Shown one piece after another: positions 3,975-22,069 of a DNA stretch of 64,000 nt. The position numbers were made by a program, and so were the translations under genes. Source of the DNA: Rhodococcus sp. 06-235-1A (lineage in GTDB: Bacteria > Actinomycetota > Actinomycetes > Mycobacteriales > Mycobacteriaceae); NCBI RefSeq assembly GCF_002258785.1, contig NZ_NOYI01000036.1, positions 62,001 through 126,000 on the forward strand. Direction: 5' to 3'. Position 1 is the first letter of the stretch. Every line of letters starts with the position of its first letter. The notes under the pieces were generated by a model. It did no database searches. It saw nothing but the letters and a program-made list of their open reading frames with translations, and was not told the origin of the DNA.

Positions 3975-4084
3975 TTACCCACCACACGGGAGCGCCGGTC
4001 AGTAGCATTCATCCCGCCGAGCTACGCGTACAACCACCATATAGAACAGCTTCTGTGATCGAAAAGTCCTCGATCTACCAGTGA

Positions 4085-4650: not shown

Positions 4651-4655
4651 GTGGT

Positions 4656-4737: not shown

Positions 4738-4758
4738 CTGAGTGGAAGGAGTCTGTCC

Positions 4759-6757: not shown

Positions 6758-6758
6758 T

Positions 6759-7439: not shown

Positions 7440-7698
7440 TCGCGGACCCACTCCGACTCCGAGCACTACGTGACGGGAAGGTGAATACAAGTCCGCCGTC
7501 GACCGTCCGCGGCTGGTAGCGCAGGTGAGGATCGTTGCCCACAACTCGATACCCTCAGGTTGGTCAGCCGTTGAGAGCGTGCACGCCGACGGGGCCTTCA
7601 TCTCGCTGAGAGGCGTCAGGTCTAGACGGATGAGCGCCCGGACGTCCGGGCGCGGTCTCGCTGGGAACATGGCCCGACGTTAGCCCCAGCACCTGCGT

Positions 7699-7742
7699 GG
7701 AAGGTCAAGGATTTGACCTTCCACCCGACTCGAAGGTTTATC
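7699..7742 (+). promoter_or_regulatory. MerR-type metal promoter/operator
   Basis: A -35 TTGACC (7713-7718) and a -10 near TTTATC (7737-7742) are separated by an over-long spacer of about 18 bp. The spacer contains the dyad ACCTTC (7716-7721) / GAAGGT (7732-7737). This matches the architecture and much of the sequence of CueR/ZntR-type promoters. A second perfect 10-bp inverted repeat, GGAAGGTCAA / TTGACCTTCC (7699-7722), overlaps it. The merR-like gene starts 10 bp downstream, so regulator and pump are probably autoregulated from this one promoter. Confidence 0.82.
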
Positions 7743-7751
7743 CTCGTGCGC

Positions 7752-8183
7752 ATGTCCGCTCTGCGCATTTCACAGCTGTCATCGGCGACCGGCGTCCCGG
7801 CGACCACGCTACGGTTCTACGAAAGCGAGGGCCTGCTCCCGGCGGACCGTTCGGCGAACGGTTACCGCGTTTACGACGACCGCGCTCGGCAACGCTTGGC
7901 GTTCATCACCGCCGCCAAGAGCCTGAACCTGTCGCTGCCGGAGATCAAACTTCTCCTTCGTGTCTGGGAGAAAGACTCCTGCGCAGCAGTCAAAGCCGAA
8001 CTCGGCCCCGCCATCGAGTCCCACATCGCGCACGCCAACGAATCGATCGCTCAATTGACCGCTCTGCGTGAGAGTTTGACCGACGCGCTGGCCCGGCTCG
8101 GGGACACACCCGACGCGCCGACGCCATGCAATCCGGACTGCACCTGGCTGATCTCAGCGAACACCGCGGTGGGCACCGCATGA
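7752..8183 (+). CDS. MerR-family metal sensor
   Basis: This is a protein of about 143 residues. The N-terminal winged helix (LRISQLSSATGVPATTLRFY, then YRVYDDRARQRL) is followed by a dimerisation helix and a C-terminal metal loop. It has a Cys near residue 77 (KDSCAAVKAE), the position that marks divalent-metal sensors such as ZntR, CadR and MerR. It also has a PCNPDC pair near residues 125-129. ATG 7752 was chosen because the DNA-binding domain begins there; the frame is open further upstream through the operator. It overlaps the following transporter gene by 4 bp (ATGA), so the sensor controls its own operon. Confidence 0.9.
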   Translation: MSALRISQLSSATGVPATTLRFYESEGLLPADRSANGYRVYDDRARQRLAFITAAKSLNLSLPEIKLLLRVWEKDSCAAVKAELGPAIESHIAHANESIAQLTALRESLTDALARLGDTPDAPTPCNPDCTWLISANTAVGTA

Positions 8184-9214
8184 ACATATCGAGCACCACC
8201 TCGGTGGTGGCGTGGCTGGAGAAGTTCCAGATCCCGCTCTACCTGCTGGCCCTGCTCATCGGTGGCGGTGTCGGTTTGGGTGCGCCGTCGTCGGCGCATG
8301 CGTTCGAGATTGCTATCAATCCGGTACTGATCGTGTTGCTCTACGCTACGTTCCTCGCGGTTCCGTTCTCCGCCATCGGCGCATCGCTGCGCGACGGCAC
8401 ATTCTTGCTCAGCGTCGTAGTACTGAATTTCGTGCTCGTTCCAATCGTCGTATTCGCTCTGACCCGGTTCGTTGCTGCTGATCAGGCGGTACTCGTCGGT
8501 GTGCTGTTGGTGTTGTTGGCTCCCTGCATCGACTACGTCATCGTCTTCAGTGGGTTGGCCGGTGCAGCGTCGGAACGGCTCCTCGCGAGCGCGCCGCTGT
8601 TGATGTTGTTGCAGATCGCGTTCCTGCCGCTCTACCTGTGGTTGTTCGTCGGGTCCGAGCTGGTGGAGATCATCGACATTGCACCGTTCGTCGAAGCGTT
8701 CGTGCTGTTGATCGTTGTTCCTCTGGTGTTGGCGGCCCTGACGCAAGCACTTGCGCGTCGTCGGCGTATCGGCACCCAGATCATGGATGTGATGGCCGCG
8801 GCGATGGTGCCGGTCATGATGGCCACTCTTGCCGTCGTCGTGGCATCGCAGATCGACGCAGTCCGCTCCGAAGGCTCCCAGCTGTTTGCCGCGGTGCCGA
8901 TCTTCGTCGCGTTCCTGGTCATCATGGCGGTTGTCGGATGGGCGACGGCCAGAGTGACCCGCCTGGACGTCCCGGACGCTCGGGCCTTGATCTTCTCCGG
9001 TGCCACCCGAAATTCGTTGGTCGTTCTGCCGCTGGCGCTCGCGCTGCCACCAGCACTGTCTCTTGCTGCCGTGGTCGTGGTGACGCAGACACTGGTGGAG
9101 CTGATCGGAATGGTCGCCTACGTCCGACTCATCCCCTGCCTTGTCCCAGCTCACGCTGCGAGAGCACCGGTGAAGTTCGAAACAACTCGCACGAACCAAG
9201 GCAATCCTGGGTGA
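8180..9214 (+). CDS. BASS/ACR3-superfamily exporter (arsenite-type or other metal)
   Basis: This 344-residue protein has about ten membrane segments. It resembles the bile acid:sodium symporter/ACR3 arsenite exporter superfamily: LYATFLAVPFSAIGASLRDG, VLLAPCIDYVIVFSGLAGA (with the Cys of the arsenite-exporter helix, as in the ACR3 pattern PC) and a late FSGATRNSLVVLPLALALP, equivalent to the conserved ATRNS helix. These conserved parts favour an arsenite-resistance-like pump. The overlapping MerR gene has divalent-metal cysteines, so the substrate may differ from arsenite. The C-terminal 25 residues are hydrophilic. Confidence 0.85.
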   Translation: MNISSTTSVVAWLEKFQIPLYLLALLIGGGVGLGAPSSAHAFEIAINPVLIVLLYATFLAVPFSAIGASLRDGTFLLSVVVLNFVLVPIVVFALTRFVAADQAVLVGVLLVLLAPCIDYVIVFSGLAGAASERLLASAPLLMLLQIAFLPLYLWLFVGSELVEIIDIAPFVEAFVLLIVVPLVLAALTQALARRRRIGTQIMDVMAAAMVPVMMATLAVVVASQIDAVRSEGSQLFAAVPIFVAFLVIMAVVGWATARVTRLDVPDARALIFSGATRNSLVVLPLALALPPALSLAAVVVVTQTLVELIGMVAYVRLIPCLVPAHAARAPVKFETTRTNQGNPG

Positions 9215-9384
9215 CGAGAACTGGATAAAAGCAGGTGGCGTCAGTGAGGGTGAACGAACCACGGGATCCAGTGCCGCGACCCCGTTCCACTTCCCGCGAG
9301 CATTGAGCATCGAATGGGGACTTTTCCGGCAAACGCGCCTGTGGGCTCCGCGCCCGCTACGACTGCAGTCTCTACGCTGGCACC

Positions 9385-10290
9385 GTGCCCCTGCCGACCC
9401 ATGTGACCGACCTGATCAGCTACGAATTATTGCTGTCCGTCGCCGAGCTGGGAAGCATCGGACGCGCAGGGGAGGCGCATGACATGTCGCAGCCAGCGGC
9501 GAGCGCACGCCTGAAAGCACTCGAAAGCCGCATCGGGGTAGCACTCCTGCATCGCGGGCAGCGAGGTGCCACCCTCACCGCAACCGGCGAACTGGTCGCC
9601 GGCTGGGCCGAGCGCGTCATCGCCGAAGCCGCCGAGCTCGCCACGAGCATCGCAATGCTGCGCACCGACCGCCACAGCCACATTCGTATCGCCGCAAGCC
9701 TCACCATCGCCGAATACCTCATACCGCGATGGCTCATCACACTGCGCTCCCACGACACTTCCATCACACCGACTCTCACCTCCGGAAACTCTGTCGACGT
9801 AGCCGCATCGGTGCTCGACGGCCGCGCCGACATCGGATTCGTCGAAAGCCCCGATCTGCCCAGCGGACTCCACTCGAAGGACGTTGCCCGCGACGAACTC
9901 GTCGTCGTCGTCGCCCCCGATCATCAATGGGCTCGACGAACGATCACGGCGAGCGAACTGGCCGCGACACCGCTGGTCACCCGCGAACCCGGGTCCGGCA
10001 CACGTCTCGCGCTCGAACGTGCGCTCCGGACTGCGGGCCCACTCGCCGCGCCACTGCTCGAGGTGTCCTCCACCACTGCCATCAAAGCTGCCGTCATCGG
10101 CGGCCTCGCACCGGCCGTACTCAGCTCCCTCGCGGTATCCGCCGAGATCGCCGCCGGAACGCTGGCCCGCGTTCACACAGAGGGGCTCGACCTGCGCCGG
10201 TTCCTGCGTGCCGTGTGGCCCGCGGGCCGTGAACTGCGAGGACCGTCGAGCGACCTGCTCGTCGTCGCCCTCAAATCCCCGCAGTCATAA
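9385..10290 (+). CDS. LysR-family transcriptional regulator
   Basis: This 301-residue regulator starts at GTG 9385. The winged helix-turn-helix occupies about residues 10-70, with LLLSVAELGSIGRAGEAHDM and SQPAASARLKALESRIGVAL. The periplasmic-binding-like effector domain follows, with IRIAASLTIAEYLIPRWL and DIGFVESPDLPSGL. The closest kind is the CysB/YwqM-type single-domain LTTR, but the effector cannot be read from sequence. It lies 69 bp upstream of, and in the same direction as, a TDT-family channel gene. It most likely controls that gene. Confidence 0.92.
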   Translation: MPLPTHVTDLISYELLLSVAELGSIGRAGEAHDMSQPAASARLKALESRIGVALLHRGQRGATLTATGELVAGWAERVIAEAAELATSIAMLRTDRHSHIRIAASLTIAEYLIPRWLITLRSHDTSITPTLTSGNSVDVAASVLDGRADIGFVESPDLPSGLHSKDVARDELVVVVAPDHQWARRTITASELAATPLVTREPGSGTRLALERALRTAGPLAAPLLEVSSTTAIKAAVIGGLAPAVLSSLAVSAEIAAGTLARVHTEGLDLRRFLRAVWPAGRELRGPSSDLLVVALKSPQS

Positions 10291-10359
10291 CCTGAGGTTG
10301 GGACCGGCCAGGTAATCGGTGTCTACCGGTGACGACTGTGTGCGAGGACGCTGGAAGTC

Positions 10360-11532
10360 ATGACCACGACAGCTCTGCACCGCTCCTCCATCACGTCTCG
10401 GCGCGGCGACGATACCGAGCGGCCGCGCAAGTGGCCGGTGCTCTCCGACCTCGACCACCCGAGCCAGATCTTCGAACACATCACCCCCAACTGGTTCGCC
10501 TCGGTCATGGGCACCGGTATCGTCGCCAACGCCGCCGCCACCCTGCCCGCCCACATCCCCGGACTGCACGTGTTCGCAACGATCGTGTGGATCGCAGCGT
10601 CGGTCGCCTTGATCACACTCTCCGGTGCCTTCGCAGTGCACTGGATCCGACACCGGCAGTATGCGCGTGAGCACGCCGCGCATCCGGTGATGGTGCAGTT
10701 CTACGGCGCACCCCCCATGGCGCTGCTGACCGTCGGTGCCGGGACGATGCTGCTGGGCAAAGACGTCATCGGAGCGGCGCCCGCAACCGTGATTTTTGCC
10801 GTCCTGTGGACCGCTGGCACAGCCCTCGGGCTGATCACCAGCATTCTCGTGCCCTACCTGATGATCACCGCCCACGATCACCAGACCGCCGTCGCACTCC
10901 CGGCGTGGTTGATGCCCGTCGTACCGCCGATGGTGTCCGCCTCCACCGGTGCGCTGCTGCTCCCTCATATCGCGGATGGGCAATGGCGCCTGGCCATGCT
11001 GTCCGGTTGCTACGCGATGTTCGGGCTGTCACTGATCATCGGAATGCTGACCATGACGCTCATCTACGGACGGCTCGTCCACGGCGGAATCCCGCCGGTC
11101 CAGGCAGCACCGACGGTGTGGATCACCCTCGGCATGATCGGTCAATCGATCACCGCCGCGAACCTGCTCGGCAACGATGCACCCTTGGTGTTCACCGGCG
11201 AGACCGCCTCCGTCGCAACCGGCCTGCACGTGTTCGGCATTCTGTACGGACTGACGATGGGCGGCTTCGGCGTCTTGATGTTCACCCTCGCAACCGCCCT
11301 CACCATCCATGCCGCCCAGAAGGGACTGACATTCTCACTGACCTGGTGGTCGTTCACCTTCCCCATCGGCACCTGCGTCACCGGTGCCACTGCCCTCGGC
11401 GGCGCTCTGGGGTCGGCCGCGGTCGAGGCCCTTGCAATCGGACTGTATGCGGCCTTGCTCGCAGCCTGGGGCACAGTCGCCGCCCACACTCTCCGCGGCA
11501 GCGTGCAAGGAAAACTTTTTCAACCCAGCTGA
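10360..11532 (+). CDS. TDT/SLAC1-TehA family transporter
   Basis: This 390-residue membrane protein has about ten helices. The family signature ITPNWFASVMGTGIVANAAA opens the first helix (about residues 43-62). The TDT family includes the tellurite-resistance protein TehA, malate permeases and sulfite exporters such as SSU1; all pass small anions. The upstream LysR regulator and the stress-resistance setting make export of a toxic anion plausible, but the substrate is unknown. The N-terminal 40 residues are hydrophilic. A separate short membrane-protein gene follows after 95 bp. Confidence 0.88.
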   Translation: MTTTALHRSSITSRRGDDTERPRKWPVLSDLDHPSQIFEHITPNWFASVMGTGIVANAAATLPAHIPGLHVFATIVWIAASVALITLSGAFAVHWIRHRQYAREHAAHPVMVQFYGAPPMALLTVGAGTMLLGKDVIGAAPATVIFAVLWTAGTALGLITSILVPYLMITAHDHQTAVALPAWLMPVVPPMVSASTGALLLPHIADGQWRLAMLSGCYAMFGLSLIIGMLTMTLIYGRLVHGGIPPVQAAPTVWITLGMIGQSITAANLLGNDAPLVFTGETASVATGLHVFGILYGLTMGGFGVLMFTLATALTIHAAQKGLTFSLTWWSFTFPIGTCVTGATALGGALGSAAVEALAIGLYAALLAAWGTVAAHTLRGSVQGKLFQPS

Positions 11533-11627
11533 ACCGACCGCCGGGTAGTACCCACTCGGAACGCTGATACCGAACGAACAGCGTTGATCCAATCGACCAC
11601 TGACCCCGGAAAGGACTCACGATCACG

Positions 11628-11975
11628 ATGAACACACCGAATGCAGACACACCGACTTCCGATACCCCGAGACGGGGCAGCCGCGGACGCGTCTGGGCAC
11701 GAGTCACCGAAAATTATCTGACCTGGCTGTTGCTGATGGCGGGAACAGCTGCTGCGGGGGCCTTTCTCACGGCCCTCGCCGGCGGGTTCGAGGGCTGGAC
11801 CGTCGTCGCAGCGATCGTGACAGTGGTGCTGTTCGCGGGATGTTGGTTCTCATATCGAGACGGTGCACGCCGGGGTGCCGCCGAACCACACATCATCCAG
11901 TACCACCCCGACAGCCCGGACGAGGTGATCGACATCGACACCGACACCGGCGAACGCCAGCCCCACCAGGACTGA
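11628..11975 (+). CDS. Small two-helix membrane protein, 115 aa
   Basis: A basic N-terminus (about 35 residues) is followed by two hydrophobic helices, YLTWLLLMAGTAAAGAFLTA and GWTVVAAIVTVVLFAGCWF. The acidic tail contains VIDIDTDTGERQPHQD. ATG 11628 has GGAAAGGA upstream. No family is recognised. Position suggests co-transcription with the TDT channel, perhaps as an accessory subunit. Confidence 0.65.
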   Translation: MNTPNADTPTSDTPRRGSRGRVWARVTENYLTWLLLMAGTAAAGAFLTALAGGFEGWTVVAAIVTVVLFAGCWFSYRDGARRGAAEPHIIQYHPDSPDEVIDIDTDTGERQPHQD

Positions 11976-12006
11976 CCGGTCGGAGGCAGCAGCAGCACGA
12001 TCCGCC

Positions 12007-12642
12007 CTACCTCAGCACAGTGCGGGGTTCAGGTGCCTTCTCCAGGTGCGTTGCGACCGACAGTGCTGCGTTGATCAACCGCTGGCGAGCAGCCGCCGGT
12101 GCGTGTGCGTTGCGAGCCGAGGGGTGCGGTGCCGCTATCACCGGGAGGAGGCGGGTGGGAGCAGATGCAGTGATGACGCGCATGTAGCCATCGAGAGCCT
12201 TCGCACCAAGAACGAAAACCACCTCCAGTTTCGGCAGCAAGGCCATAAGCTCGCCGACATATGGGCCCGCCTCACCGAGAACGGATGCCGTCGGCGATAC
12301 CGGATGACCGGCGTCATCGAGCACTGCCCACGGCACAATATTCCACTTGACGCACTGCACCCGGTCGATACCCGCGTCGGCGAACACCGATTTCAGCACG
12401 GGGTTCGTTCGATCTGGATTGTCGAACGAACACATGTTGGTCCCGCCCGGACGTATCGTTTTCGGCCCCGGAGACTCCAACAGCACCAGACAGCGAGCCG
12501 CGTCGCCGCCGTCGTCGGGATCGAACAGTGGAATGGACCGTGCAGTGTCGATCCTCCATCGCAACACCGACGCATTGAGTGAGCGGACCGGGGCATCGTG
12601 CGCTCGGGCGTGCTTTCCGGACCACACGTCATCATCTGTCAT
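12007..12642 (-). CDS. Uracil-DNA glycosylase superfamily protein
   Basis: This 211-residue protein has the UDG-like core. LVLLESPGPKT corresponds to the G-E-x-P-G substrate loop. WNIVPW follows the second strand (KWNIVPWAVLDDAG). LLPKLEVVFVLGAKA is the central strand, and APHPSARN is the H-P-S leucine-loop motif. Such enzymes remove uracil from DNA; relatives of this branch are common on actinobacterial mobile elements and their substrate is less certain. The substrate loop has Ser-Pro where classical family 4/5 enzymes have Ala/Pro-Pro. ATG 12642 was preferred over GTG 12651. It runs opposite to the neighbouring TDT operon. Confidence 0.85.
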   Translation of the reverse strand: MTDDDVWSGKHARAHDAPVRSLNASVLRWRIDTARSIPLFDPDDGGDAARCLVLLESPGPKTIRPGGTNMCSFDNPDRTNPVLKSVFADAGIDRVQCVKWNIVPWAVLDDAGHPVSPTASVLGEAGPYVGELMALLPKLEVVFVLGAKALDGYMRVITASAPTRLLPVIAAPHPSARNAHAPAAARQRLINAALSVATHLEKAPEPRTVLR

Positions 12643-13146
12643 ACGCCGCACTCACTGCTGACCCACGCCACACGTACTGCTGGCCATGGGGAAACGCACC
12701 GTGAGCCGTAGACGCCAGCTCTCGGTGGCTCGCCTCGACGACCACTGCTGAGCGTTTGACGACTCCGCTGCCTGAACACACCTATGAGATAACCACGACA
12801 GGCCGTGTGGTGCCTATTGCACCCGTCTTCTCATCGACTTCGATTCCAGATCAGGTCGGATACCCCCTAGGGTACTTACATACCCCCCTTGGTATATGCC
12901 ACAGTGGGTACCGAACCGACCGAAAGTATGCACGACTTTTCTGGAATGAGTCCGGAAAACGAGCGACGGACCGATGCGGTGCGGCGAACGCAGAGCCAGC
13001 GCGTTCGGACTCGGATGTCGATCCGGGGTACGTCGTCAGCGTCCCGATCTCACTCGACCGCGGTCCAGCCGTTCGGGCGGCCACGCGACCGACACGCTGT
13101 CCGAGGCACCGCATCGAAACCTGCCCGTGTCCGTGACGACTCGGTC
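12643..13146. other. Non-coding stretch around copper-type operators
   Basis: No convincing gene is seen on either strand here. The short frames lack coding character or merely continue from the anti-sigma gene. The only clear signal is the pair of TACCC-N5-GGTA boxes. It may be the upstream part of a copper operon whose genes were lost. Confidence 0.5.
12861..12894. promoter_or_regulatory. Two tandem TACCC-N5-GGTA boxes (RicR/CsoR-like copper operators)
   Basis: TACCCCCTAGGGTA (12861-12874) and TACCCCCCTTGGTA (12881-12894) each fit TACCC-N5-GGTA, the motif known for the copper repressor RicR. They are also close to CsoR boxes. Their 20-bp centre-to-centre spacing places them on one face of the helix. 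No copper gene follows closely on either side: the nearest start is the glycosylase gene 219 bp to the left. Confidence 0.6.
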
Positions 13147-13824
13147 TCAGCGAGAGGCCCGCGCGATCGTGTTGCCCGCCGGATCGTCGATCACGATCGA
13201 GTGGATGTCCTCGACAGAAAGGGACGTTGCGCCGGTCACCGCTGCTGCTCGGCTCGCGGTGACCGACCATTGAGCTGCTTGTTGTCGAGTCCCGTCGTTG
13301 CCGACCACTTGCAGAGTGAGGATGCCTGCGCCGGGGAGTTGTTGAACGTCGACGTCGATCGATGTGCCCCAGGCTTTCGTGGTGAGCTCGAGGTCACCTG
13401 TGGCCCCGACGGTGCTCGACAGAACGAGCGGGCGGGCACCCGCATCGTTCACCGTTGTCGAATCGTCGGAGCGGGCGAGGGTACTGAGCGGGACGATCGC
13501 CGCAGCGACTCCCAGAACGAGGGTCGCCGACACCGCAGTCCACACTCGCCGCCGCCTCTTCTCGGAGGTCCGTTGATGCCTCATCGCGCTCAGCAGGTGG
13601 TCGAGTCGCTGGTCTGCACCGGCCGTCGAGTGCACCGGTGAGAGATCTGCTGGCTGCCTGCGACGTCGAAGCACTCCTGCGACGGGTGCCAGGACGTCGA
13701 TTTCGGTTCGGCAGGCAAGGCAGTCGTCGAGGTGTCGTCGTACCGCTGCTCGGTCGTCGCGCTCGAGTCCGTCGAGTACGTACGCCCCGAGCAGTGGTCG
13801 GATCTCGTCGTGCGCTGAGCTCAT
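13147..13824 (-). CDS. Membrane anti-sigma factor with zinc-finger (ZAS) domain
   Basis: This protein has 225 residues. The N-terminal cytoplasmic domain has the zinc-anti-sigma motif HLDDCLAC (H-x3-C-x2-C) near residues 29-36, after HDEIRPLLGAYVLDGLE. One membrane helix (VWTAVSATLVLGVAAAIVPL) follows near residue 100. The extracytoplasmic domain contains LELTTKAWGTSIDVDVQQLP and resembles the RskA/anti-sigma-K C-terminal domain. It should bind the sigma factor encoded just upstream and release it on an envelope signal. Its start overlaps the sigma stop by 4 bp. Confidence 0.92.
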   Translation of the reverse strand: MSSAHDEIRPLLGAYVLDGLERDDRAAVRRHLDDCLACRTEIDVLAPVAGVLRRRRQPADLSPVHSTAGADQRLDHLLSAMRHQRTSEKRRRRVWTAVSATLVLGVAAAIVPLSTLARSDDSTTVNDAGARPLVLSSTVGATGDLELTTKAWGTSIDVDVQQLPGAGILTLQVVGNDGTRQQAAQWSVTASRAAAVTGATSLSVEDIHSIVIDDPAGNTIARASR

Positions 13825-14372
13825 GGAATCAATCCCAACTCGTCGAAGATCCGGCGTAGGGCACGCACAGCGTAATAGGAGCGGGACTTGACCGTGCCGA
13901 CCGCGATATCGAGGTGCGCGGCCACTTCGGAGACGGTTCGACCCTCGTAGTAGATGAGCACGATGACTGCTCGATGCTCCTCGGACAACCGACGCAGCGA
14001 CTCGTCTATGAGCCACCCGTCGAGGACCCCGCCCAATTCGTCGTCGATGCACTCGGCGGCGAGTGCGATCTGATCGTGGACGAGAGTCGGCCTGCTCGTG
14101 CTCGCCCGCCACTGATCGGTGAGTACGTTTCGCGCGATGGTCATGAGATAGGACCGCGTCGATGCTGCCGTCACATCGATGCGGTCGATCCCGCGCCACG
14201 CGCGCAACATCGTCTCCTGGACGATGTCCTCACACTGCTCGCGGGTCTGGGTGTAGCGGCTGACGAATCGAGTCACTGCGTGCTGGTGCTCGCGGAAGAG
14301 CGCCGACATGGCGACTTCGGACGCATCGACGAGCTGGTGGTTGTGCTGTGAGCCGGATTCGACACCGTCCAC
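13821..14372 (-). CDS. ECF sigma factor
   Basis: This 183-residue group 4 sigma factor has only regions 2 and 4. Region 2 runs from LFREHQHAVTRFVSRYTQTR through EDIVQETMLRAW to YLMTIARNVLTDQWR. Region 4 is LRRLSEEHRAVIVLIYYEGR, then VSEVAAHLDIAVGTVKSR. It resembles the SigL/SigK type. The GTG start at 14372 directly follows the TAG of the lipoprotein gene upstream, and the anti-sigma gene overlaps its end, so lipoprotein, sigma and anti-sigma form one operon. Autoregulation from a promoter upstream of the lipoprotein gene is expected. Confidence 0.93.
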   Translation of the reverse strand: MDGVESGSQHNHQLVDASEVAMSALFREHQHAVTRFVSRYTQTREQCEDIVQETMLRAWRGIDRIDVTAASTRSYLMTIARNVLTDQWRASTSRPTLVHDQIALAAECIDDELGGVLDGWLIDESLRRLSEEHRAVIVLIYYEGRTVSEVAAHLDIAVGTVKSRSYYAVRALRRIFDELGLIP

Positions 14373-15359
14373 CTAACTGCCCGAGCCGGAAGCGGCATCG
14401 GTGAAACCGGTCGTGGCGGCGGCGACCATGTCGAGAACAGGATTGGTCGGCGAGATCGAATGCCGAGCGGCGAGTACACGGATATCGGGGTGAGCCACGT
14501 GAACGATCCCTTCGGCATCCTGCCACGCCACGTATCGGGCGGGGAGGTCGATCCCCATGGTCTGCTGCGCTCCGACCAGCGCAGTCGAGACCGCAGGATT
14601 ACCGACGTAGGTGACCATGGTGGGCCTCAGAGGTGTCTCGGCAGCGGCGGACGCGAGATCGACGGTTGCGACTGTGGGCTGATTCTTGGCCGCGAACGCT
14701 GCCTCGTATCGGGCAATGGACGCTGCAACCGATGCATCACTGGTCTTCTCGACCAGGTATCCCGGCGCTGCGGACACATCGGTGCCCTCTGCGGCGGCCG
14801 CCGAGGATCCCGTCGCATCGGACGCGGTCGATGCCGAGCCGGCCCGGAGTCCGTCGAGGGCGTCGGACGAGACCGGGATGCCTGCGAGCGTCGCGATGTA
14901 CTCGGCGGAGTTGTATGCCAGAAACACCGTTCCGTTGGCGGCCTGCCAGACCAGGTACTTCTGTGGAAGGTCGATCGCGGCCCGTTGGTCCGCGGCGATC
15001 AACGGCGACGCCGCTTTCGGATTCCCCCCGATCACCACGGTGGTCGGGCGGATCGTCTCACCTGCTCCCTGTGCCAACTTCTCGAAATCCACAGTGGCTG
15101 CCACAGCTCCCGCCGTCTCCAGCGCGCGCTGTACCCGAGAGACCGTGTCACTCACAGAGTAGTTACTGGCGTACACCACCAGTCCGGGTTCGGACGGTGC
15201 CACATCGGGTGTCGCAGCCTTCGCGTCCGCCGACGTGGACACCGGAGTGCTCGACACCGCCACCGAACCGGTGGGTTCGGTGGAACCGCACCCGGCGAGG
15301 GCGATCACCGCCGCCGACGCGAGCAGCGACGTTGCCATACGGAACCTTGAAGTGCTCAT
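14373..15359 (-). CDS. Lipoprotein with two tandem DUF302 domains
   Basis: This 328-residue secreted lipoprotein has a lipobox, VIALAGCGS, at about residue 25, then a Ser/Thr-rich linker. Two DUF302 domains follow. The first runs from LVVYASNYSVSDTVSRVQRA to VWQAANGTVFLAYNSAEYIA. The second runs from LVEKTSDASVAASIARYEAA to VAWQDAEGIVHVAHPD. DUF302 has no settled biochemical function; it occurs in envelope and stress contexts, including metal islands. As first gene of the sigma/anti-sigma operon it is probably an envelope stress target or sensor. ATG 15359 was chosen because the signal peptide starts there. Confidence 0.88.
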   Translation of the reverse strand: MSTSRFRMATSLLASAAVIALAGCGSTEPTGSVAVSSTPVSTSADAKAATPDVAPSEPGLVVYASNYSVSDTVSRVQRALETAGAVAATVDFEKLAQGAGETIRPTTVVIGGNPKAASPLIAADQRAAIDLPQKYLVWQAANGTVFLAYNSAEYIATLAGIPVSSDALDGLRAGSASTASDATGSSAAAAEGTDVSAAPGYLVEKTSDASVAASIARYEAAFAAKNQPTVATVDLASAAAETPLRPTMVTYVGNPAVSTALVGAQQTMGIDLPARYVAWQDAEGIVHVAHPDIRVLAARHSISPTNPVLDMVAAATTGFTDAASGSGS

Positions 15360-15618
15360 CACGTGTCCTGTCCTCGTGCCCACGCCAGCGGTGGGCTTCA
15401 CTGTGGTGTACGCACACCGAGCCTGAGGGGTTCACCCGAACCGAAGTTCCCTCCGGCGATTGCTCCCGGAATGTCGGTGCACCGGAGGGCGACACAGTCG
15501 AGTTCACGCAAGCGGAGATCTGATCGATCGGTTCACCCCGGTCTCGTCGAGCGTCTCCACGCCACAGAAGCGGCCTGAACGGGTGCAGGGACCATCTTCG
15601 CGGCACGAACGGCCGACC

Positions 15619-16713
15619 TCACGGCGGCACTTCTGCCTCGACGAATTCGAGAAGCCGCTTCAACAGTGAATCCGCACGCTCTTCGACGTCGTCGAGCGTC
15701 GAATCGACGCCACCGAGTAGCTGGTGTGCGTCTCGGCGTGCCCGAGTCCCGTGTTCGTAGTAGCCGGGGTCGAGTAGCGAAGCCGAGGCGGGCTTGGGTA
15801 CGAGATCTGTGCTCGGCTGCCGTGCCTGCACCGAATGGTGTCGGTGCACAGGTGCTCGTCCGTCCAGGTGCGCTCGAACGATGTCGGCGACCGCATGGGC
15901 GGTAAGTGCAGTCGCAGTCAGCGGGGTGTGACCCCACCGGTCGATTGCGGTCGACAGCGGCTGTCGACCGGCCGGATCGACGTACCGGTCGAATCCGCTG
16001 AGCCCGGTACCGCCCACGGCATCGAGAGCGTCGGCGAGCATTCGAGTGTTCGGGTACCGCGTGTGATGGCCCAGCACCTCCAACCAGCGCTGGAACACCG
16101 TCCGCGGCGAGATACCCGTCTCCATCAGTGCGAGAGGAGTGACGGTGCGAACGCCGCGGCCTGTGTCGATACGAAGGGCATCGATCCTCGGATCGGCGGT
16201 GACGTCGCAGGGCCGCAGGGCCGCGATCTGGGTGTACGGCAGACCGGTCGAGGCAAAGACCAGGACGAGGGCGTCTCGCCGCGCGAACAGTTCGGACGGC
16301 CAACCGGATTCGGGGAGGCGCGCGATGACGCCGCCGATCACGGCTGCCAGCTCGTGCAGGCGCGCCGTACGCGCCACGTCCAGCGCAGCCCGGACGACCT
16401 CCGCACGGCCCGGCTGGGGTAACAGGTGCCGGGAATGGGCGGCGTCGATCACCGCGATCCGGCGGCGCTGGGTCGTGGACGCCGCGGGGTGCGCCGAGAG
16501 GAACCGAGCAAGTGAATCCGGGGAGGCCGCCAGTGGTGTTTCGTCATGGGCGGTGCACCAGTCCTCGAACAGTGACCACGTGTGCCGATCCCGCTTCGGC
16601 ACCGCCACGTTCGTGATATCCGCTGGTCGAATCGAACCGGTGCAGTCGTCGTGGTCAGCATCTACCCCGGTCGCCCTATCGGCGTTCACGGGTGAAGTCA
16701 CACGCCCGGTCAT
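15619..16713 (-). CDS. Tyrosine-recombinase-like partner (rec2), catalytic residues missing
   Basis: This 364-residue protein has the recombinase fold. The core-binding SAM-like domain is around WSLFEDWCTAHDETPLAASP and TTQRRRIAVIDAAHSRH. A catalytic-type domain begins with ALVLVFASTGLPYTQIAALR. At the box I position, where active enzymes have G-L-R-x-S-E, it has GLPYTQI, so both the catalytic Arg and the Glu are changed. No H-x-x-R box II or catalytic Tyr region is recognisable. It probably acts as a non-catalytic partner of rec1, whose gene it overlaps by 4 bp. The far C-terminus is acidic and helical. Confidence 0.82.
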   Translation of the reverse strand: MTGRVTSPVNADRATGVDADHDDCTGSIRPADITNVAVPKRDRHTWSLFEDWCTAHDETPLAASPDSLARFLSAHPAASTTQRRRIAVIDAAHSRHLLPQPGRAEVVRAALDVARTARLHELAAVIGGVIARLPESGWPSELFARRDALVLVFASTGLPYTQIAALRPCDVTADPRIDALRIDTGRGVRTVTPLALMETGISPRTVFQRWLEVLGHHTRYPNTRMLADALDAVGGTGLSGFDRYVDPAGRQPLSTAIDRWGHTPLTATALTAHAVADIVRAHLDGRAPVHRHHSVQARQPSTDLVPKPASASLLDPGYYEHGTRARRDAHQLLGGVDSTLDDVEERADSLLKRLLEFVEAEVPP

Positions 16714-17882
16714 AGACCGAGTTCGGTGACCGCGTTGCCGACCAGAGGGGCGTGCTCGCGGGCATATGTCTCGACCATTGCGGGTGTGGTGTGCCCGGTC
16801 TGGCGCATGATCGCATGTGCATCGGCACCGTTACGGAAGGCTTGGGTGACGAATCCTGCCCGCAGGGAATGGCCGCCGAGCTGCATGACAGTCTCGGGGT
16901 CGTACCCGGCGTGAGCTGCGCGGCGGCGGATCGCCGCATGGACCGCTGCCCCGGACAACACAGTGTCGGAGAGGTTGCCGTTCTTGCGGACAGACCGGAA
17001 CAGCGGCGACCGTTTCTCGGCGGTCGGCAGGGTGCCGCGGCAGAGATGGGAGTCGAATTGTGCTGCGCGAGAAAGCAGTCGAATGACGGCGGCTCTGCCC
17101 CCGGTGTCGAACGCGGCGACGATCTGCAGCCATCGCACCCACGCGCAGACCGGGCAGGATTCGTGGCAGTCGGTGAACGGAAGCGCTTTCACCGTTCCGA
17201 TGCCGGTTCCGTCCTGGTCGGTCTTCGATCTTCGGATCCGTACGTGCGCACCGTCGAGACGGTCGCGGCGCACATCGCGGCATTCCAGCGCTACGAGTTC
17301 GCTGCGTCGAAATGCGCCGGTGTATCCCATCAGCAGCAGCGCGGTGTCGCGGCGTTCGAGCACCTCCGACGCCCACCCCGCTGTAGTGCGTCGGGCGTGG
17401 TCGACGATCGTGGTGATGTCGGAGGTCAGCAGCGGTGCGCGCGGGTTGCGGGGCCGCTCCCCCGCCGACGCGTAGTCCCGCCGGATACCGGCGAGGGTGG
17501 CGCGCACCATCTCGTGCCCGCACGGGTTGTCGTGTCCGGTAGCGCGGTGGCGGTCGGCGATCGCCGCAATCCACTTGCCGAACGTCGCGGCCGCGTACGC
17601 CCGCGTCCCGTCGACGGTGAGCGTGTCGGCCGCGGCGACGAGGTAGGCCGCCACTGTCGCGGGATGCGCCGGCAACGCGTGGTGCCCGGCGACGGTGCAC
17701 CAGGTCTCGAAGCGTCGCCACGCCGAGGTGTAGGCCCGGCGGGTACCGGTCGAGCGGGACGCGGCCATGGAACGCTCGATCCGAGCAGCAACCTCGGGCG
17801 GTAGGTCTGGAAACACCGCCGCGGCACCCGGCACGACAGCCGGGATCGTGGTCGGGCCGTCTACGAGCTGGCGATCTGTCAT
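16710..17882 (-). CDS. Tyrosine recombinase (rec1), probable cointegrate resolvase of the transposon
   Basis: This 390-residue recombinase is complete. The core-binding domain includes RRAYTSAWRRFETWCTVAGH. Box I is MGYTGAFRRSELVALECRDV with the catalytic Arg. Box II is GGHSLRAGFVTQAFR (H-x-x-R). Then come RQTGHTTPAMVETYARE with GH and the nucleophile Tyr. The start at ATG 17882 follows a 204-bp gap after tniQ. TniABQ transposons leave cointegrates that need a resolvase. The classical TniR is a serine enzyme, and this tyrosine enzyme is the obvious replacement. It is translationally coupled to the inactive rec2. Confidence 0.93.
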   Translation of the reverse strand: MTDRQLVDGPTTIPAVVPGAAAVFPDLPPEVAARIERSMAASRSTGTRRAYTSAWRRFETWCTVAGHHALPAHPATVAAYLVAAADTLTVDGTRAYAAATFGKWIAAIADRHRATGHDNPCGHEMVRATLAGIRRDYASAGERPRNPRAPLLTSDITTIVDHARRTTAGWASEVLERRDTALLLMGYTGAFRRSELVALECRDVRRDRLDGAHVRIRRSKTDQDGTGIGTVKALPFTDCHESCPVCAWVRWLQIVAAFDTGGRAAVIRLLSRAAQFDSHLCRGTLPTAEKRSPLFRSVRKNGNLSDTVLSGAAVHAAIRRRAAHAGYDPETVMQLGGHSLRAGFVTQAFRNGADAHAIMRQTGHTTPAMVETYAREHAPLVGNAVTELGL

Positions 17883-17981
17883 GGCTGGACTGTAGCGGGC
17901 CCTCCCGACAGACTTCTCAGGCCGAAAGCACGCTGAGCAGGCGTTTCCGCGGACACGGTGCGGGAAGGAAAATTCTCGTCG

Positions 17982-18007
17982 GTCACCGCACACATAACGT
18001 TGGTGAC
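17982..18007. other. Inverted repeat in the tniQ-rec1 gap, possible recombination core site
   Basis: GTCACC (17982-17987) and GGTGAC (18002-18007) face each other across 14 bp inside the only sizeable gap of the transposition operon. Tyrosine-recombinase core sites have this general form and often lie beside the recombinase gene. The arms are short, so this is only a candidate. Confidence 0.3.
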
Positions 18008-18086
18008 TATGACCCCGGCGCGAAAACGGGCTTCTCGGCCGTCGCAGCGTGTGCGTCGCGGACAACCCCGCTCCATCGGGTGATAG

Positions 18087-19319
18087 CTACGTCGGCGGAT
18101 GTTGCAGCGGGATCCCGTGGTCGAGGAACAGTTGCACCGTCTCATCCAGCGCCGCTGCGGTGCGGCACCCCCAGCGCAGGAAGTTGTACAACGAACTGGC
18201 GGATGCGGGATCGACGCGCGCTGCCGCGATGGCGGCCTCGGCCGCAGCGTGCGCGTCAGCCCACAAATCGCGCTCGGGTGCGGGATTAGACGAGCGCGTC
18301 GGAGCTGTCCCGGGATCGACCGGCTCATAGGGACGTGGGCTCAGCAGAGATGCGTGCGCACCGCCGGCGTCGACCTCACCGCTTTCGACCATCGCAATGC
18401 CGATCGCTGCGGCCTCCAGAACTTTCGCCTGCTCGTCCCAGTGCAGGTCCTCGAACGGAACCCACGCGGTCCGGAGCGGGCGAGAACGACCGGCGGCCTT
18501 CCAGATCGCAACGAGTCTTGTCGCCCACCGTCCGGTGCGAACCAGTGGTGTGGACACTTCGTCGGCGACGGTGCGCAGCAGCCGGAACCAGACTGCGGCG
18601 TGCACTCGGCCTGGGCCGAGTTCCACCCATCCGGTCGTCAGAGCCTCGGTGGTGCGCCGATCGAGTTCCGTGACCGCTGAGGGAACCGGAACGGGCGAGA
18701 CCCGTTCGTCCGAACCGAACCGGACTTGGTCCCAGAAGATTGCATGACCAGGGAAAGCAGAGCAGGGTTCGAGTCGACAACGGTGGTCGAGGCAGCTGCT
18801 CAGCACCGGATATTGCTGCAGCAGAGTCATGTTGATATCAGCAGTGGATTCGAGGCTGTCGATACACGCCGGGCATGCCCGACTGCGCGGAGTGCTGGCC
18901 CACGGCAACCATGCGTCGTGCGTGGGTGTGCGGCGGCGTCGATCCTCCCTCGCGAGGTCGGCCGGTAGCAGGATCGAGAATTGGTGGACGTAGGTGTCGA
19001 AGTCGCAGTCGGCGGGGTCGGTGCTGTCGAGTAGCCACGGTGTCCACCCCGCCAACGTCATCATCCGCGCCCTCTCTACCGGGACTGCGCCGCGACCGGC
19101 CAGCTCGGCGAGGATCGGCTCCGGTGTGTAGCGGTCGAGATCCTCGACAGCACAATCGATATCGAGGTCTGCAAGCAGGTCAGAAGACTTGATGTGCGGA
19201 TACAGCTCGCATATCCGGGCCAACCAGGACGAGAGGGCCTCGCCGGGCTGTGGCGGCGGGTGCAGCGGCCACGGGCGAACGTACGCATCATCGGGCATCG
19301 CCGCGAGCCGCGCGTTCAC
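18087..19319 (-). CDS. tniQ: Transposition/target-selection protein TniQ
   Basis: This 410-residue protein starts with the TniQ signature PPQPGEALSSWLARICELYP. It has a zinc-finger region with CPACIDSLE and later LSSCLDHRCRLEPC (Cys/His clusters around residues 145-180). In Tn5053/Tn402 and Tn7-like elements TniQ (TnsD) helps choose the target and links it to the ATPase TniB. The GTG start at 19319 overlaps the tniB stop (GTGA). It is the third gene of the leftward tni operon. The C-terminal region is alanine-rich and helical. Confidence 0.93.
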   Translation of the reverse strand: MNARLAAMPDDAYVRPWPLHPPPQPGEALSSWLARICELYPHIKSSDLLADLDIDCAVEDLDRYTPEPILAELAGRGAVPVERARMMTLAGWTPWLLDSTDPADCDFDTYVHQFSILLPADLAREDRRRRTPTHDAWLPWASTPRSRACPACIDSLESTADINMTLLQQYPVLSSCLDHRCRLEPCSAFPGHAIFWDQVRFGSDERVSPVPVPSAVTELDRRTTEALTTGWVELGPGRVHAAVWFRLLRTVADEVSTPLVRTGRWATRLVAIWKAAGRSRPLRTAWVPFEDLHWDEQAKVLEAAAIGIAMVESGEVDAGGAHASLLSPRPYEPVDPGTAPTRSSNPAPERDLWADAHAAAEAAIAAARVDPASASSLYNFLRWGCRTAAALDETVQLFLDHGIPLQHPPT

Positions 19320-20254
19320 GCGAGGTGGCGTTCGAACTGGCGACGTCGCTCGGTGGGACCGAGGTACGGAGTGCGCGTGAGCACCGAGGAGGTGATCGCT
19401 TCCTCTCCGCTGTCGACGGCGGTCACTGCTGCGGCAGTGAGCAGCGTTGCCAGTTCACCGATGGTGCCCTCGGAGCGAGTGAGGAGGTAGTCGGTCATCT
19501 CCGGTGATGTCAGGTGCGAGGGTTTGCGGAGGGGGAAGCTCGTGGTGAAGCTGGCCAGCAGCGATCTGGTGTCGGCAGTGTTGGTCCAGACCGGCAAAGT
19601 CATGGGGTGGAATCGGTTCTCCAGCTGGGGATCGGTACGGATGGCGAGGTAGGCGTCACGGGTGCCGACAGCGACAAGAGGAATGCGTAGTTCGTTGCCC
19701 AGGAACCGCAGCACGTTCAAGAATTCGCGGCGGACGTTGTCGCGGCCGGCGAGAACATTGTGGAGCTCGTCGATGATCAACATCTTCACGCCGGTGGCGC
19801 GGAGCAGCATCAATGCTTGCTGTTCGAGTTCGTGGACCCGATTGCGTGGTCGGGTCGGTGTTCCCAACGCTATGAGCAGTGCGAGGTAGAACCGGCCGGG
19901 TGACGGGTCCGGGGGCATCTGCATACACAACACCGGTATCTGCTCGCGGTCGGACAAGCTGATCGGCGGATGAGTGCGCCGGAACTTTTCGATGATCATC
20001 GACTTGCCGTTGTTCGTCGGACCGAGCAACAGTAAGTTCGGCATACGCTGCCGGTCTGGCCACGACAACAACGACTCCAGATGGTCGACGACCGTACGGG
20101 CCTGCGGATACCCGATCCACCTCTCCGACCGGATCAACCGGATCCGCTCCGCGTCGTCGAGTGCGGTGAGCGGTCGAACCGACTCCCGCAGGTGCCCCAA
20201 ATCCTCGATGGACGACTCGGCGGGTTCGTCGCTGCTTCCTGTCGATGCGGTCAT
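19316..20254 (-). CDS. tniB: AAA+ transposition ATPase TniB
   Basis: This 312-residue AAA+ protein has a Walker A-like LLLLGPTNNGKSMIIEKF (GPTNNGKS, about residues 75-82) and a Walker B VKMLIIDELHNVLAG. Then come the sensor-type VAVGTRDAYLAIRTD and arginine-rich ENRFHPMTLPVW. It belongs to the TniB/TnsC family that binds target DNA and activates the transposase. ATG 20254 lies 4 bp after the tniA stop. An earlier in-frame start inside tniA is possible but unlikely. Confidence 0.94.
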   Translation of the reverse strand: MTASTGSSDEPAESSIEDLGHLRESVRPLTALDDAERIRLIRSERWIGYPQARTVVDHLESLLSWPDRQRMPNLLLLGPTNNGKSMIIEKFRRTHPPISLSDREQIPVLCMQMPPDPSPGRFYLALLIALGTPTRPRNRVHELEQQALMLLRATGVKMLIIDELHNVLAGRDNVRREFLNVLRFLGNELRIPLVAVGTRDAYLAIRTDPQLENRFHPMTLPVWTNTADTRSLLASFTTSFPLRKPSHLTSPEMTDYLLTRSEGTIGELATLLTAAAVTAVDSGEEAITSSVLTRTPYLGPTERRRQFERHLA

Positions 20255-20258
20255 CGCC

Positions 20259-21938
20259 TCACCATTCCTCGATGTCTCTGAAGACCGGCGTTGCGGTGCC
20301 GCCGCCCGCTCGAGGCTCCACCGGCGGGTGGATCGCCGAGATCGGTGCAGACGCGGCACCGTTGAGATGCATGCGGCGGGCACGGTTGCGCCGGGCTTTG
20401 CGGGTGGCTTTCTGCGAGCGGTCGGTGACCTCGCGCATCTGCTCGATCATCGAAAACAGTGCGCTCTCATCGACGTTCGACCGACCTTGTTCGCGGAGAC
20501 GGGCGATAGCAGCTCTGTGCTCCCACAGTGTCACCGCGGGATGTGACATCGTCCGGTACGGCACCTCGACATAGCCGGCACCGTCTGGCTCGAGGACCCA
20601 GATTCTGCTCAGATCGCGTGGATCACGTCGTATCACGAACCGCCCCAAATCCTCTCGCCGCGCAACCCACGGTTTGAGCGCGTTCGAGAAGTAGTGCACG
20701 TGATCCAGAACGAAGCCCGTGCGCGTCAAACGTCGCCGGATGACGGGAAGAAAGTCCACCAGGAACGCGGTTTCGCCGAGCACCACACGAGGGGCATGAC
20801 CAGCTGCGGCGACCCCGCCGGCCCACACGGCGGCCGGAGTGTTCCCGATCCCTGTGTGAACGCTCGCGTGATACGAGGCTATGGCCAGGACCAGCCAGCG
20901 CTCCAACTCATGCAATGTCAACGCCGCGTGCTTGTCCGAGTCGTAACTTCCTCGGTCCGCTGGGTTCGAGAAGGTGGTCCCAGGCAGCTCGTGCACCGCC
21001 GTCATCGCCGTTCCGATGATGCGTTCGACGATCCCGCCGTAGTGAGGTCGGCCCGGAGGACGGTATTCGAGTGTGATGGCGTGCTGGGCGCATCCGCGGC
21101 GCAGCGCTTCGCTTTTGAACTCGGAGGCGTTGTCGAGATACAACTGTTTTGGCTTCCCTGCCATCGGCCACTGCACCTGCTCCGCGAGCTCGCATGCCTC
21201 CAGCCATGTCTGCTTCTCGCAGCACACCCGGCCCAGGCACAACCCGACCGATACCGCTGATGGCGGCTCCAGAGTGACGACGAATCCGAGTACGGAACGG
21301 CTGAAGACATCGATGGCGATCGTCAGGTAAGGGCGACCGATCGGTTGCCGCTCGTACTCGTCAACGACCATCAGATCGACGACGGTGTGGTCGATCTGGA
21401 CCTGATCGAGAATCCCCGAAACCGTCGGTGGACTGTCGCCGGCGGACTGACGCGGGCGGGCGGCATCGGGTCCTCCGCGGGACCTGGCGACCGATGCCGG
21501 ATGGAGGGCGGCGATACGCGCAGTGACGGTGTTTCTGGCCGGCACCGGCAGACCCGCGCGGTGACAGGCCAGCGCGATACGTCGGTGCAGCGCAGCGACA
21601 CTCGGCTTCTGGCAGTGAAGAAAATATCGAGTGAGATGGTCGCCGATCACGTCCTCGACGTCAGCCGCTACTCGGCTGCGGCCACGCCCTCCCGACGAGA
21701 CCTTCGTCAGAAGATCGGTGACTGTCCCCGTCCCGTTCCTGAGCCTGCCGAGTAACGTGTAGACCTGCCGCCTGGACAATTCCAACCGCTGTGCTGCATC
21801 GTCAACCGCTTCCGAACGCACCGGATGCATCTCCAGCAAGGGAGCCAGGACAGCGAAACGGACCTCGGCCTGGGACCACCGCTCCCCCGACGCTGTCAGC
21901 ACACCGGTCTCCACGACATCGAGCTTGTCGGGGTCCAT
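20259..21938 (-). CDS. tniA: DDE transposase TniA (Mu/TnsB type)
   Basis: This 559-residue transposase has an N-terminal helix-turn-helix (LELSRRQVYTLLGRLRNGTG). The rve integrase core has the three acidic residues in QIDHTVVDLMVVDEY, LYLDNASEFKSEALRRG and HYGGIVERIIGT. A Mu-type C-terminal beta barrel follows (YFSNALKPWVARREDLGRFV). It cuts and joins the transposon ends at the inverted repeats. ATG 21938 was chosen because GGGAGG lies 7 bp upstream. The right terminal repeat and iterons lie within 131 bp upstream, as usual for tniA. Confidence 0.95.
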   Translation of the reverse strand: MDPDKLDVVETGVLTASGERWSQAEVRFAVLAPLLEMHPVRSEAVDDAAQRLELSRRQVYTLLGRLRNGTGTVTDLLTKVSSGGRGRSRVAADVEDVIGDHLTRYFLHCQKPSVAALHRRIALACHRAGLPVPARNTVTARIAALHPASVARSRGGPDAARPRQSAGDSPPTVSGILDQVQIDHTVVDLMVVDEYERQPIGRPYLTIAIDVFSRSVLGFVVTLEPPSAVSVGLCLGRVCCEKQTWLEACELAEQVQWPMAGKPKQLYLDNASEFKSEALRRGCAQHAITLEYRPPGRPHYGGIVERIIGTAMTAVHELPGTTFSNPADRGSYDSDKHAALTLHELERWLVLAIASYHASVHTGIGNTPAAVWAGGVAAAGHAPRVVLGETAFLVDFLPVIRRRLTRTGFVLDHVHYFSNALKPWVARREDLGRFVIRRDPRDLSRIWVLEPDGAGYVEVPYRTMSHPAVTLWEHRAAIARLREQGRSNVDESALFSMIEQMREVTDRSQKATRKARRNRARRMHLNGAASAPISAIHPPVEPRAGGGTATPVFRDIEEW

Positions 21939-21976
21939 CACAAGCCTCCCTGTCACCGAGAGCCGAACATGCGACC

Positions 21977-22020
21977 GTGCACCGCACTTCTGACATCAGA
22001 ATGTCAGAAGACACGTGCAC
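21977..22020. repeat. Two inverted 19-bp TniA-type iterons
   Basis: GTGCACCGCACTTCTGACA (21977-21995, pointing left) and TGTCAGAAGACACGTGCAC (22002-22020, pointing right) both resemble the inner part of the terminal repeat. They sit between the right terminus and the tniA start. They are probably TniA binding sites and may also overlap the tni promoter. Confidence 0.8.
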
Positions 22021-22044
22021 TCACCCTCGAAACGCCTGCAAAGA

Positions 22045-22069
22045 GTGCAGCCGTCGTCTGAAACTGACA
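22045..22069 (-). repeat. Right terminal inverted repeat of the transposon
   Basis: Read on the minus strand it starts TGTCAGTTTCAGACGACGGC and matches the left terminus at 23 of 25 positions. TGAT follows immediately outside, as it does outside the left end. Confidence 0.93.

Follow-up and report, generated by a model that had tools for sequence, protein, structure and literature searches.

The window analysed here is a stretch of 64,000 nucleotides from Rhodococcus sp. 06-235-1A (contig NZ_NOYI01000036.1, positions 62,001 to 126,000), and it contains a Tn5053-like transposon in which two overlapping genes, rec1 and rec2, follow tniQ. Rec1 is a tyrosine recombinase with a complete catalytic set, rec2 is a paralogue of it that has lost this set, and the gap between tniQ and rec1 holds a conserved dif-like core at which the halves of differently assembled copies of the element meet. 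As the best explanation of the whole, we propose with moderate confidence that Rec1 would resolve cointegrates at this core and that Rec2 would be its coupled, DNA-binding accessory subunit. The features on which this rests are the following, in window coordinates.

16710..17882, minus strand: rec1, a tyrosine recombinase active by sequence, 390 amino acids (PF00589, Cre alignment, structural model).
15619..16713, minus strand: rec2, a catalytically dead rec1 paralogue, 364 amino acids, with the motifs IDRWGH and LDPGYYERGxxARR of its own.
17957..18009, minus strand: putative res region, an inverted repeat GTCACC (18007-18002) / GGTGAC (17987-17982) followed by the core.
17957..17980, minus strand: dif-like core, formed by the arm GACGAGAA (17980-17973), the spacer TTTTCC (17972-17967) and the arm TTCCCGCACC (17966-17957).

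Rec1 is a Cre/Xer-like tyrosine recombinase whose complete catalytic set predicts an active enzyme. It matches PF00589 (E 5.6e-11), and in an alignment with Cre its R (FRRSE), K (RRSKTD), H-x-x-R (GHSLR), H (TGHTT) and Y373 (VETYARE) fall on the catalytic positions. These residues are conserved among 48 non-redundant coupled rec1 homologues, a set from which 8 of 56 coupled clusters were dropped, the whole rec1 frame not having been extracted for them: both R, both H and the Y are present in 48/48, and the K and the E in 47/48 each. The structural model of Rec1, with a predicted local distance difference test score (pLDDT) of 78.6, matches Cre with a Z of 21.9, and its residues 43-375 lie on Cre 37-326, that is, beyond Y324.

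Rec2 is a paralogue of Rec1 that, by its sequence, is catalytically dead, the match between the two ending before the H-x-x-R...Y segment. The relationship is seen with tblastn (29% identity, E 7e-9) and with hhalign (probability 99%, E 8.6e-18), which pairs rec2 36-280 with rec1 45-319 and stops before rec1 H338; the integrase models of Pfam and NCBIfam give no match to rec2 at E up to 1. With one representative taken for each of the 56 coupled clusters, the residue at the position of the first catalytic Arg is P in 24, G in 11, T and S in 9 each, and A, N and R in one each; among all 91 rec2 clusters an Arg stands there in eight, seven of them uncoupled. Searching the C-terminal 120 residues for a loose motif, [HKR]xxR(20-40)Y, gives matches in 33/91 rec2 and in 48/48 rec1. 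The Rec2 model (pLDDT 79.1; residues 1-32 and 292-311 below 50) has Cre recombinases as its best fold matches (Z about 11), followed at a middling level by SroF (Z 8.4) and YopR (Z 7.0). Its residues 26-287 lie on Cre 21-273 with a Z of 11.1, and the Rec1 model, taken as a control, reaches Cre 326. The residues H289, R292, W315 and Y324 of Cre would follow after the end of this match. An earlier, sequence-only reading of this stretch had given rec1 all catalytic residues and denied them to rec2. The Cre alignment and the conservation across 48 homologues bear out the first part; the second agrees with 55/56 coupled clusters lacking the first Arg and with rec1 and Cre matches that both end before H-x-x-R...Y. 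The structure prediction proposed in that reading points the same way, with a Cre match that stops at 273 and no catalytic alignment found for displaced residues in a model of low confidence at 292-311.

Even though the catalytic set is gone, rec2 keeps features of its own. In 21 sequences R259-W-G-H262, Y318/Y319 and R326 are invariant, which made them candidates for displaced catalytic residues; in the set of 91 clusters H262, Y318 and Y319 vary, R326 is kept in 87/91, and of the motif IDRWGH the W is kept in 85/91 and the G in 90/91. The ratio of nonsynonymous to synonymous substitution rates (dN/dS), computed for 16 hand-chosen loci with saturated pairs omitted, is 0.23-0.67 for rec2 and 0.10-0.53 for rec1, with a dN that in most computed pairs is higher in rec2, and some rec2 copies have stops or are in pieces. 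As a family, rec2 is under purifying selection and is not decaying.

The two genes are tightly coupled. As had been read from the sequence alone, rec2 (15619-16713) and rec1 (16710-17882) overlap by 4 bp, an ATGA on the minus strand common to both, and in many pairs among the first 32 loci the two genes likewise overlap by 4 bp or stand only a few bp apart. Among 301 genomes of the family, a rec2 match is found in 119 and a rec1 match (E 1e-40) in 118. When coordinates are compared by eye, with lists that score only some candidates per genome, 34/35 of the best rec1 matches (E up to 2.5e-156) have a rec2 match at most 100 bp downstream, the exception (G264:C23) lying at 5.3 kb. Seen from rec2, 104 of 159 full-length loci (a redundant set) have rec1 directly upstream; after clustering at 95% identity, rec1 stands directly upstream in 56 of 91 clusters, further upstream in 10, and nowhere in the fetched, often short, stretch in 25. 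Beyond the family the gene is rare, with matches in 7/396 genomes of a phylum search at E 1e-8, three of which belong to the own family and include the own genome. Viral contigs gave one weak rec2 match, which is a better fit to rec1.

The survey of how often the pair follows tniQ, which the sequence-only reading had suggested, yields 17/35: these are the coupled pairs with a match to the window's TniQ directly upstream, counted on genome contigs among pairs with at least 3 kb of upstream sequence (39 before this cut). The remaining 18 are an upper bound for pairs without tni genes, because upstream of at least two of them (L059 and L068) lie TniA/TniB-like genes of distant similarity, at 24-25% identity, and a Gordonia plasmid carries genes for TniB, a transposase and a TnsA-like protein close to its pair. 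Rec2 also has matches in 125 plasmid records of PLSDB (E 1e-5), and pairs with no annotated tni gene in 7-9 kb upstream are found on circular plasmids of Rhodococcus and relatives, as far as the incomplete PLSDB gene tables go. The pair is thus not confined to Tn5053-type elements. Just outside the element of the window, a divergent rec2-like gene (window 1-92; C5:61124-62092 of the own genome, running past the window) and a 39-residue rec1 C-terminal fragment of 85% identity (window 1426-1542) are perhaps the remains of another pair.

The core lies 92 bp upstream of rec1 and has inverted arms around a 6-bp spacer. A block of about 55 bp between tniQ and rec1 is conserved in Tni copies despite a diverged 3' end of tniQ, and homology to diverged copies restarts at 18009-17989. 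In its own genome the core is a single copy at up to one mismatch. Reduced to the pattern AA-N6-TT-NN-CGCA-N-C, it precedes the rec1 start by 60-104 bp in 59/89 loci with a rec1 5' end (a redundant set) and occurs elsewhere 28 times in 1.5 Mb, counting both strands. It is present in 17/17 tniQ-linked pairs with at least 3 kb upstream, and further examples are known that have no tniQ close by. The inner arms covary between families (GAGAA/TTCCC, GATAA/TTATC, GCTAA/TTAGC, GTAAA/TTTAC); column pair 11/22, for instance, is GC in 10, UA in 7 and AU in 6 of 23 sequences. In these sequences, which were chosen by hand and from which the structure itself was read, so that the test favours it, 89.1% of the cells are paired, against at most 46.4% in slid versions; double-change cells number 18 against 5.6 in shuffles and the covariation score is 0.341 against 0.124, values reached in 0/500 shuffles each. 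Comparison between copies points to the core as a working site-specific recombination site, with exchange predicted at its spacer. The arm GGTGCGCTAA of locus L029 looks like an XerC arm, as in E. coli dif.

Two groups of loci show the site in other settings. In five loci (L048-L052) no tniB or tniQ match lies upstream and upstream homology ends within the core, L051 still having tniA, which looks like a deletion or fusion ending at a recombination site. On the minus strand, L092:8164 and L080:4031 are sites of the form AA-N6-TTTCCGCACCGTCAA in the opposite orientation, about 0.8-1 kb upstream of rec2-like genes without an adjacent rec1.

The core seems to be where elements located at different places have traded halves. 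Between L036 and L042 there are 0/4096 differences to the left of the spacer and 2851/6022 to its right, where the rec genes differ by 12-22% and the sequences beyond cannot be aligned. The reverse arrangement is seen between the window and L033, with 171/4097 differences on the left and 3/5399 on the right, and again between the window and L035 (216 left, 3 right), the window and L036 (221 left, 3 right) and L033 and L036 (214 left, 2 right); L034 is similar, apart from some 0.3 kb of additional sequence inserted in the gap. Read toward the spacer from the left, the window-type swaps show their last difference at -21 to -25 from the spacer start; their right halves being alike, they have no tight bound on that side. 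L036/L042, whose left halves are alike, are bounded on the right only, by a first difference at +16. Over the roughly 9.5 kb of the comparison, left and right bounds meet at the core spacer, and all of them are compatible with a crossover there. The flanks follow the halves: the window and the L033 genome are 99.95% identical over window 1-8623, of which 1-3928 is the right flank, their left flanks (about 3.6-3.9 kb) have no BLAST match to each other at E 1e-10, and L036 and L042 have a left flank in common at 95.6%. As a side observation on modularity, the cargo of L044 is 97.9% identical to window 9300-12926 and its attached tni and rec genes only 72-85%, another sign of modular exchange.

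The working model that we prefer would run as follows. As inferred from the family, TniA, TniB and TniQ would move the element replicatively and leave a cointegrate. Rec1 would then recombine the two copies of the core, 92 bp upstream of its own gene, with strand exchange around the 6-bp spacer, so that the replicons separate. The same reaction between cores at different places would swap element halves together with the DNA attached to them, products of which are seen in genomes and in which Rec1 would be the agent. Rec2 would descend from a Rec1-like copy that lost catalysis together with the H-x-x-R...Y segment and would have been kept as a translationally coupled DNA-binding subunit, most likely a non-catalytic accessory subunit of resolution. 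The case for this role is made by the coupling, the selection on rec2 and the extra repeats beside the core; Rec2 would most likely sit on the GTCACC/GGTGAC repeats, or on one core arm, and make the synapse or its outcome directional. The pair would thus be a resolution module, found also on plasmids without tni genes and here in the place of TniR.

Several observations weigh against this model. Only 2/18 pairs without a tniQ match (at least 3 kb upstream) have the core pattern; five of the 18, the loci L048-L052, seem to be cut inside the core and retain its right part only. Two of the five covariation measures do not rise above shuffles, namely the pairs with changes at both positions (2 against 1.9) and the additional pair types (5 against 5.7), and column pair 10/23 is unpaired in 13/23. 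Each half swap is tightly bounded on one side only, which leaves room for repeated homologous recombination. The repeats assigned to Rec2 are a guess from conservation, and the low confidence of the Rec2 model at 292-311 bears on the search for displaced residues. Rec2 may moreover be dispensable, since 25/91 of its clusters have no rec1 in the fetched, often short, stretch and 10 have a distant one, and a rec1 subfamily of the same genus (about 60-64% identical) has no coupled rec2. Read by eye from lists that score only some candidates per genome, most members of this subfamily have a rec2-like gene at 2-12 kb on the downstream side, a few have it at 16-23 kb or only as a piece, or it is unlisted on the contig; a similar site is kept in both examples inspected (L092 and L175). 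The sequence-only reading had suggested a hetero-oligomeric resolution machine; of this, the resolution part gains comparative evidence from the recombination site just upstream, and a strict need for rec2 is countered by the uncoupled subfamily. In L092, L131, L175 and C10:51567-57788 of the own genome, kilobases of DNA with other genes separate rec1 from a downstream, same-strand rec2-like gene, as though cargo had entered between the two.

Among the alternatives, the one that survives best, unlikely but by no means negligible, is that Rec1 alone resolves and that Rec2 represses the rec operon through the res/promoter region, in the manner of MrpR/YopR and SroF. Published work describes MrpR as a repressor that has the fold of a tyrosine recombinase but not its activity (PMC10516654), the Rec2 model has its middling resemblance to SroF and YopR, and some rec1 genes have no coupled rec2. 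However, the overlap or few-bp gap kept in many of the first 32 loci suggests a fixed stoichiometry, and the top fold matches of Rec2 are Cre recombinases.

We hold as rather doubtful a stricter form of partnership, in which Rec1 and Rec2 would form an obligate hetero-complex resembling XerC/XerD with Rec1 as the only subunit that cuts. One strand pair would be exchanged, Rec2 would sit on the other arm or on the accessory repeats, and the junction would be finished by replication or host enzymes; a tyrosine system would also hide the element's own site from other hunters of serine resolvases.

It is quite improbable that the pair is a plasmid multimer-resolution module carried purely as cargo and of no service to the transposon. 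The pairs on circular plasmids without annotated tni genes nearby and the 125 plasmid records with a rec2 match would suit such a module, but the 17 tniQ-linked copies have the pair directly behind tniQ with the site in between, the half exchanges occurred there, and the element contains no serine resolvase.

Little credence can be given to Rec2 as a target selector for TniQ. The precedent is TnsF of Tn6022, a published inactive tyrosine-recombinase selector in a Tn7-like transposon (PMC10293859), and elements of the present kind do adjoin serine resolvase genes (9/29 sequences). Nevertheless, rec2 is coupled to rec1 and not to tniQ, up to 18/35 pairs have no match to the window's TniQ directly upstream, pairs occur on plasmids without annotated tni genes, and the CxxC zinc-finger motif is absent from the rec2 sequence.

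Equally slight is the chance that the half swaps arose by ordinary homologous recombination among elements of related sequence. Halves that are about 70-96% alike are enough for RecA-type exchange, recombination through copies has been proposed for the Rhodococcus Tn7-like element Tn7706 (PMC12915292), and the breakpoints are bounded on the left only in the window-type swaps and on the right only in L036/L042; even so, the bounds from both sides converge at the core spacer within about 9.5 kb, and the arms covary across families. Finally, that rec2 is a decaying pseudogene is scarcely credible: its higher dN in most pairs and its broken copies are outweighed by dN/dS values of 0.23-0.67 in every computed pair, by its own motifs and by 91 clusters of full-length matches.

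The element that houses the preferred resolution module has the following further features.

3929..22069, minus strand: Tn5053-like element, 18,141 bp, from IRi at 3929 to IRt at 22069, with tniA-tniB-tniQ-rec1-rec2 on the minus strand, then cargo.
22045..22069, minus strand: terminal inverted repeat beside tniA, TGTCAGTTTCAGACGACGGCTGCAC.
20259..21956, minus strand: tniA, DDE transposase (Pfam Mu-transpos_C above its cut-off, rve below its own).
19316..20254, minus strand: tniB, AAA+ ATPase (Pfam above cut-off; start inferred at the ATG of MTASTG).
18087..19319, minus strand: tniQ (PF06527, E 3.7e-16).
3954..15606, no strand assigned: cargo, with two crcB-like genes, a universal stress protein, a PAP2 phosphatase, a MerR regulator, an SBF transporter, a LysR regulator, a SLAC1 transporter, a UDG-like protein, a sigma factor and a DUF302 protein; the universal stress protein and the second crcB were named by eye, in part from like-ordered genes elsewhere.
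3929..3953, plus strand: cargo-end terminal inverted repeat, TGTCAGTTTCAGAAGACGACTGCAC, then a second copy of TTCAGAAGACGACTGCACT.
3231..3824, minus strand: serine resolvase outside the element (PF00239, E 1.3e-44), its gene start 105 bp from IRi with 104 bp between.

Both ends have 25-bp terminal inverted repeats with TGTCA as first bases. Scanning the window with an 18-bp pattern derived from the 22069 end, with up to 3 mismatches allowed, gives a single further match, the 3929 end, against a chance expectation of 0.15. Most other copies cease to be homologous at 22069 or no more than about 10 bp away, and the 3929 end is found with another flank in L193. Around the window copy the flanks read CTGAT and TGATC, with 4 bp in common, and a perfect 5-bp target duplication was looked for there and not found, which a half exchange would explain; in copy L044, read by eye, an element with both rec1 and rec2 inside is bordered left and right by the 5 bp ATTCA. 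A search for TnsA (PF08722) gave no match, and its 14 control genomes gave none either. Within the cargo, window 13147-15401 is a unit of sigma factor, DUF302 protein and presumed anti-sigma factor, and a similar set stands behind the pair on plasmid pRhX5 (L195).

The serine recombinase model PF00239 has six matches in the 6.1-Mb genome and none within the element, which rules out a hidden serine TniR there and, together with the location behind tniQ, upholds the earlier view that the pair stands at the TniR position. The serine resolvase at 3231-3824 is presumably a target of res-site hunting and not a part of the element. In 9/29 inspected sequences, counted with a single serine resolvase query at E 1e-8, an element end has a serine recombinase no more than about 200 bp away, and some of these genes are cut by the element. 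Reportedly, a 27-kb insertion adjoins an invA invertase/resolvase gene in an R. species. In L192, at about 9073, the same element end adjoins a 98% identical stretch with the window's serine resolvase, and the flank differs by a few bases, perhaps an independent hit into the same region as that of the window copy. Insertion next to serine resolvase genes is a habit of the Tn5053-type res-site hunters (PMC7765201).

Dead recombinase copies are known as repressors and as target selectors. If the preferred reading is true, rec2 would be a dead copy kept as the coupled partner of an active paralogue in a resolution module, and such a module would have spread over many Nocardiaceae replicons. With the core site and the natural recombinants on both sides of it, the contribution of a non-catalytic subunit could be tested on a substrate already at hand, and the half exchanges illustrate a way in which transposons of this kind may reshuffle cargo and link replicons.

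With Tn5053/Tn402 the element has in common the gene order tniA-tniB-tniQ, 25-bp TGTCA ends that resemble those of Tn5053 and insertion beside serine resolvases, and copy L044 has a 5-bp duplication (ATTCA) where the window copy has 4 bp in common; it differs from them in having, instead of an internal serine resolvase, an active/dead tyrosine pair and a dif-like core. XerC and XerD are likewise two paralogous subunits, both of them catalytic, which act on dif, a site of two arms around 6 bp. Here the two-arm site around 6 bp and the paralogous subunits recur, but only rec1 has a complete catalytic set. Tyrosine resolvases are known from Tn7-like transposons, almost exclusively so in clade 2 (PMC8649781), and the TnsA-less Tn7-like clades 2 and 3 of Benler et al. 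(2021, PMC8649781) are, as here, Tni-type transposons with a tyrosine resolvase; unlike here, the excerpted text of that paper mentions neither a dead partner nor a coupled pair nor a recombination site. TnsF of Tn6022 is also an inactive protein of tyrosine-recombinase fold in a Tn7-like transposon, but it has zinc fingers, partners TniQ and selects comM, whereas rec2 is coupled to rec1 and has no CxxC (PMC10293859). MrpR/YopR and SroF resemble Rec2 in having the fold without recombinase function, but they are phage repressors, and no coupled active paralogue is mentioned in the excerpts used (PMC10516654). The RIT, BIM and actinobacterial Tn554-like elements have tandem tyrosine recombinases, including on Rhodococcus plasmids, but these are trios, a recombinase with an unknown protein, or pairs like TnpA/TnpB of Tn554, none of those described in the excerpt standing behind tniQ (PMC3414803). 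For Tn7706 of R. erythropolis, which bears tnsA, an exchange of end regions has been noticed (PMC12915292). Strand-biased integrative elements with an inactive protein of recombinase fold are a further lead; in PMC5991714 these words stand for an inactive protomer drawn in a model. Within the literature searched, no listed title or abstract opening deals with an inactive tyrosine recombinase that is coupled, behind tniQ, to an active partner. That transposons of this kind can carry tyrosine resolvases was already published, and what is new is the coupled dead paralogue together with a located core site.

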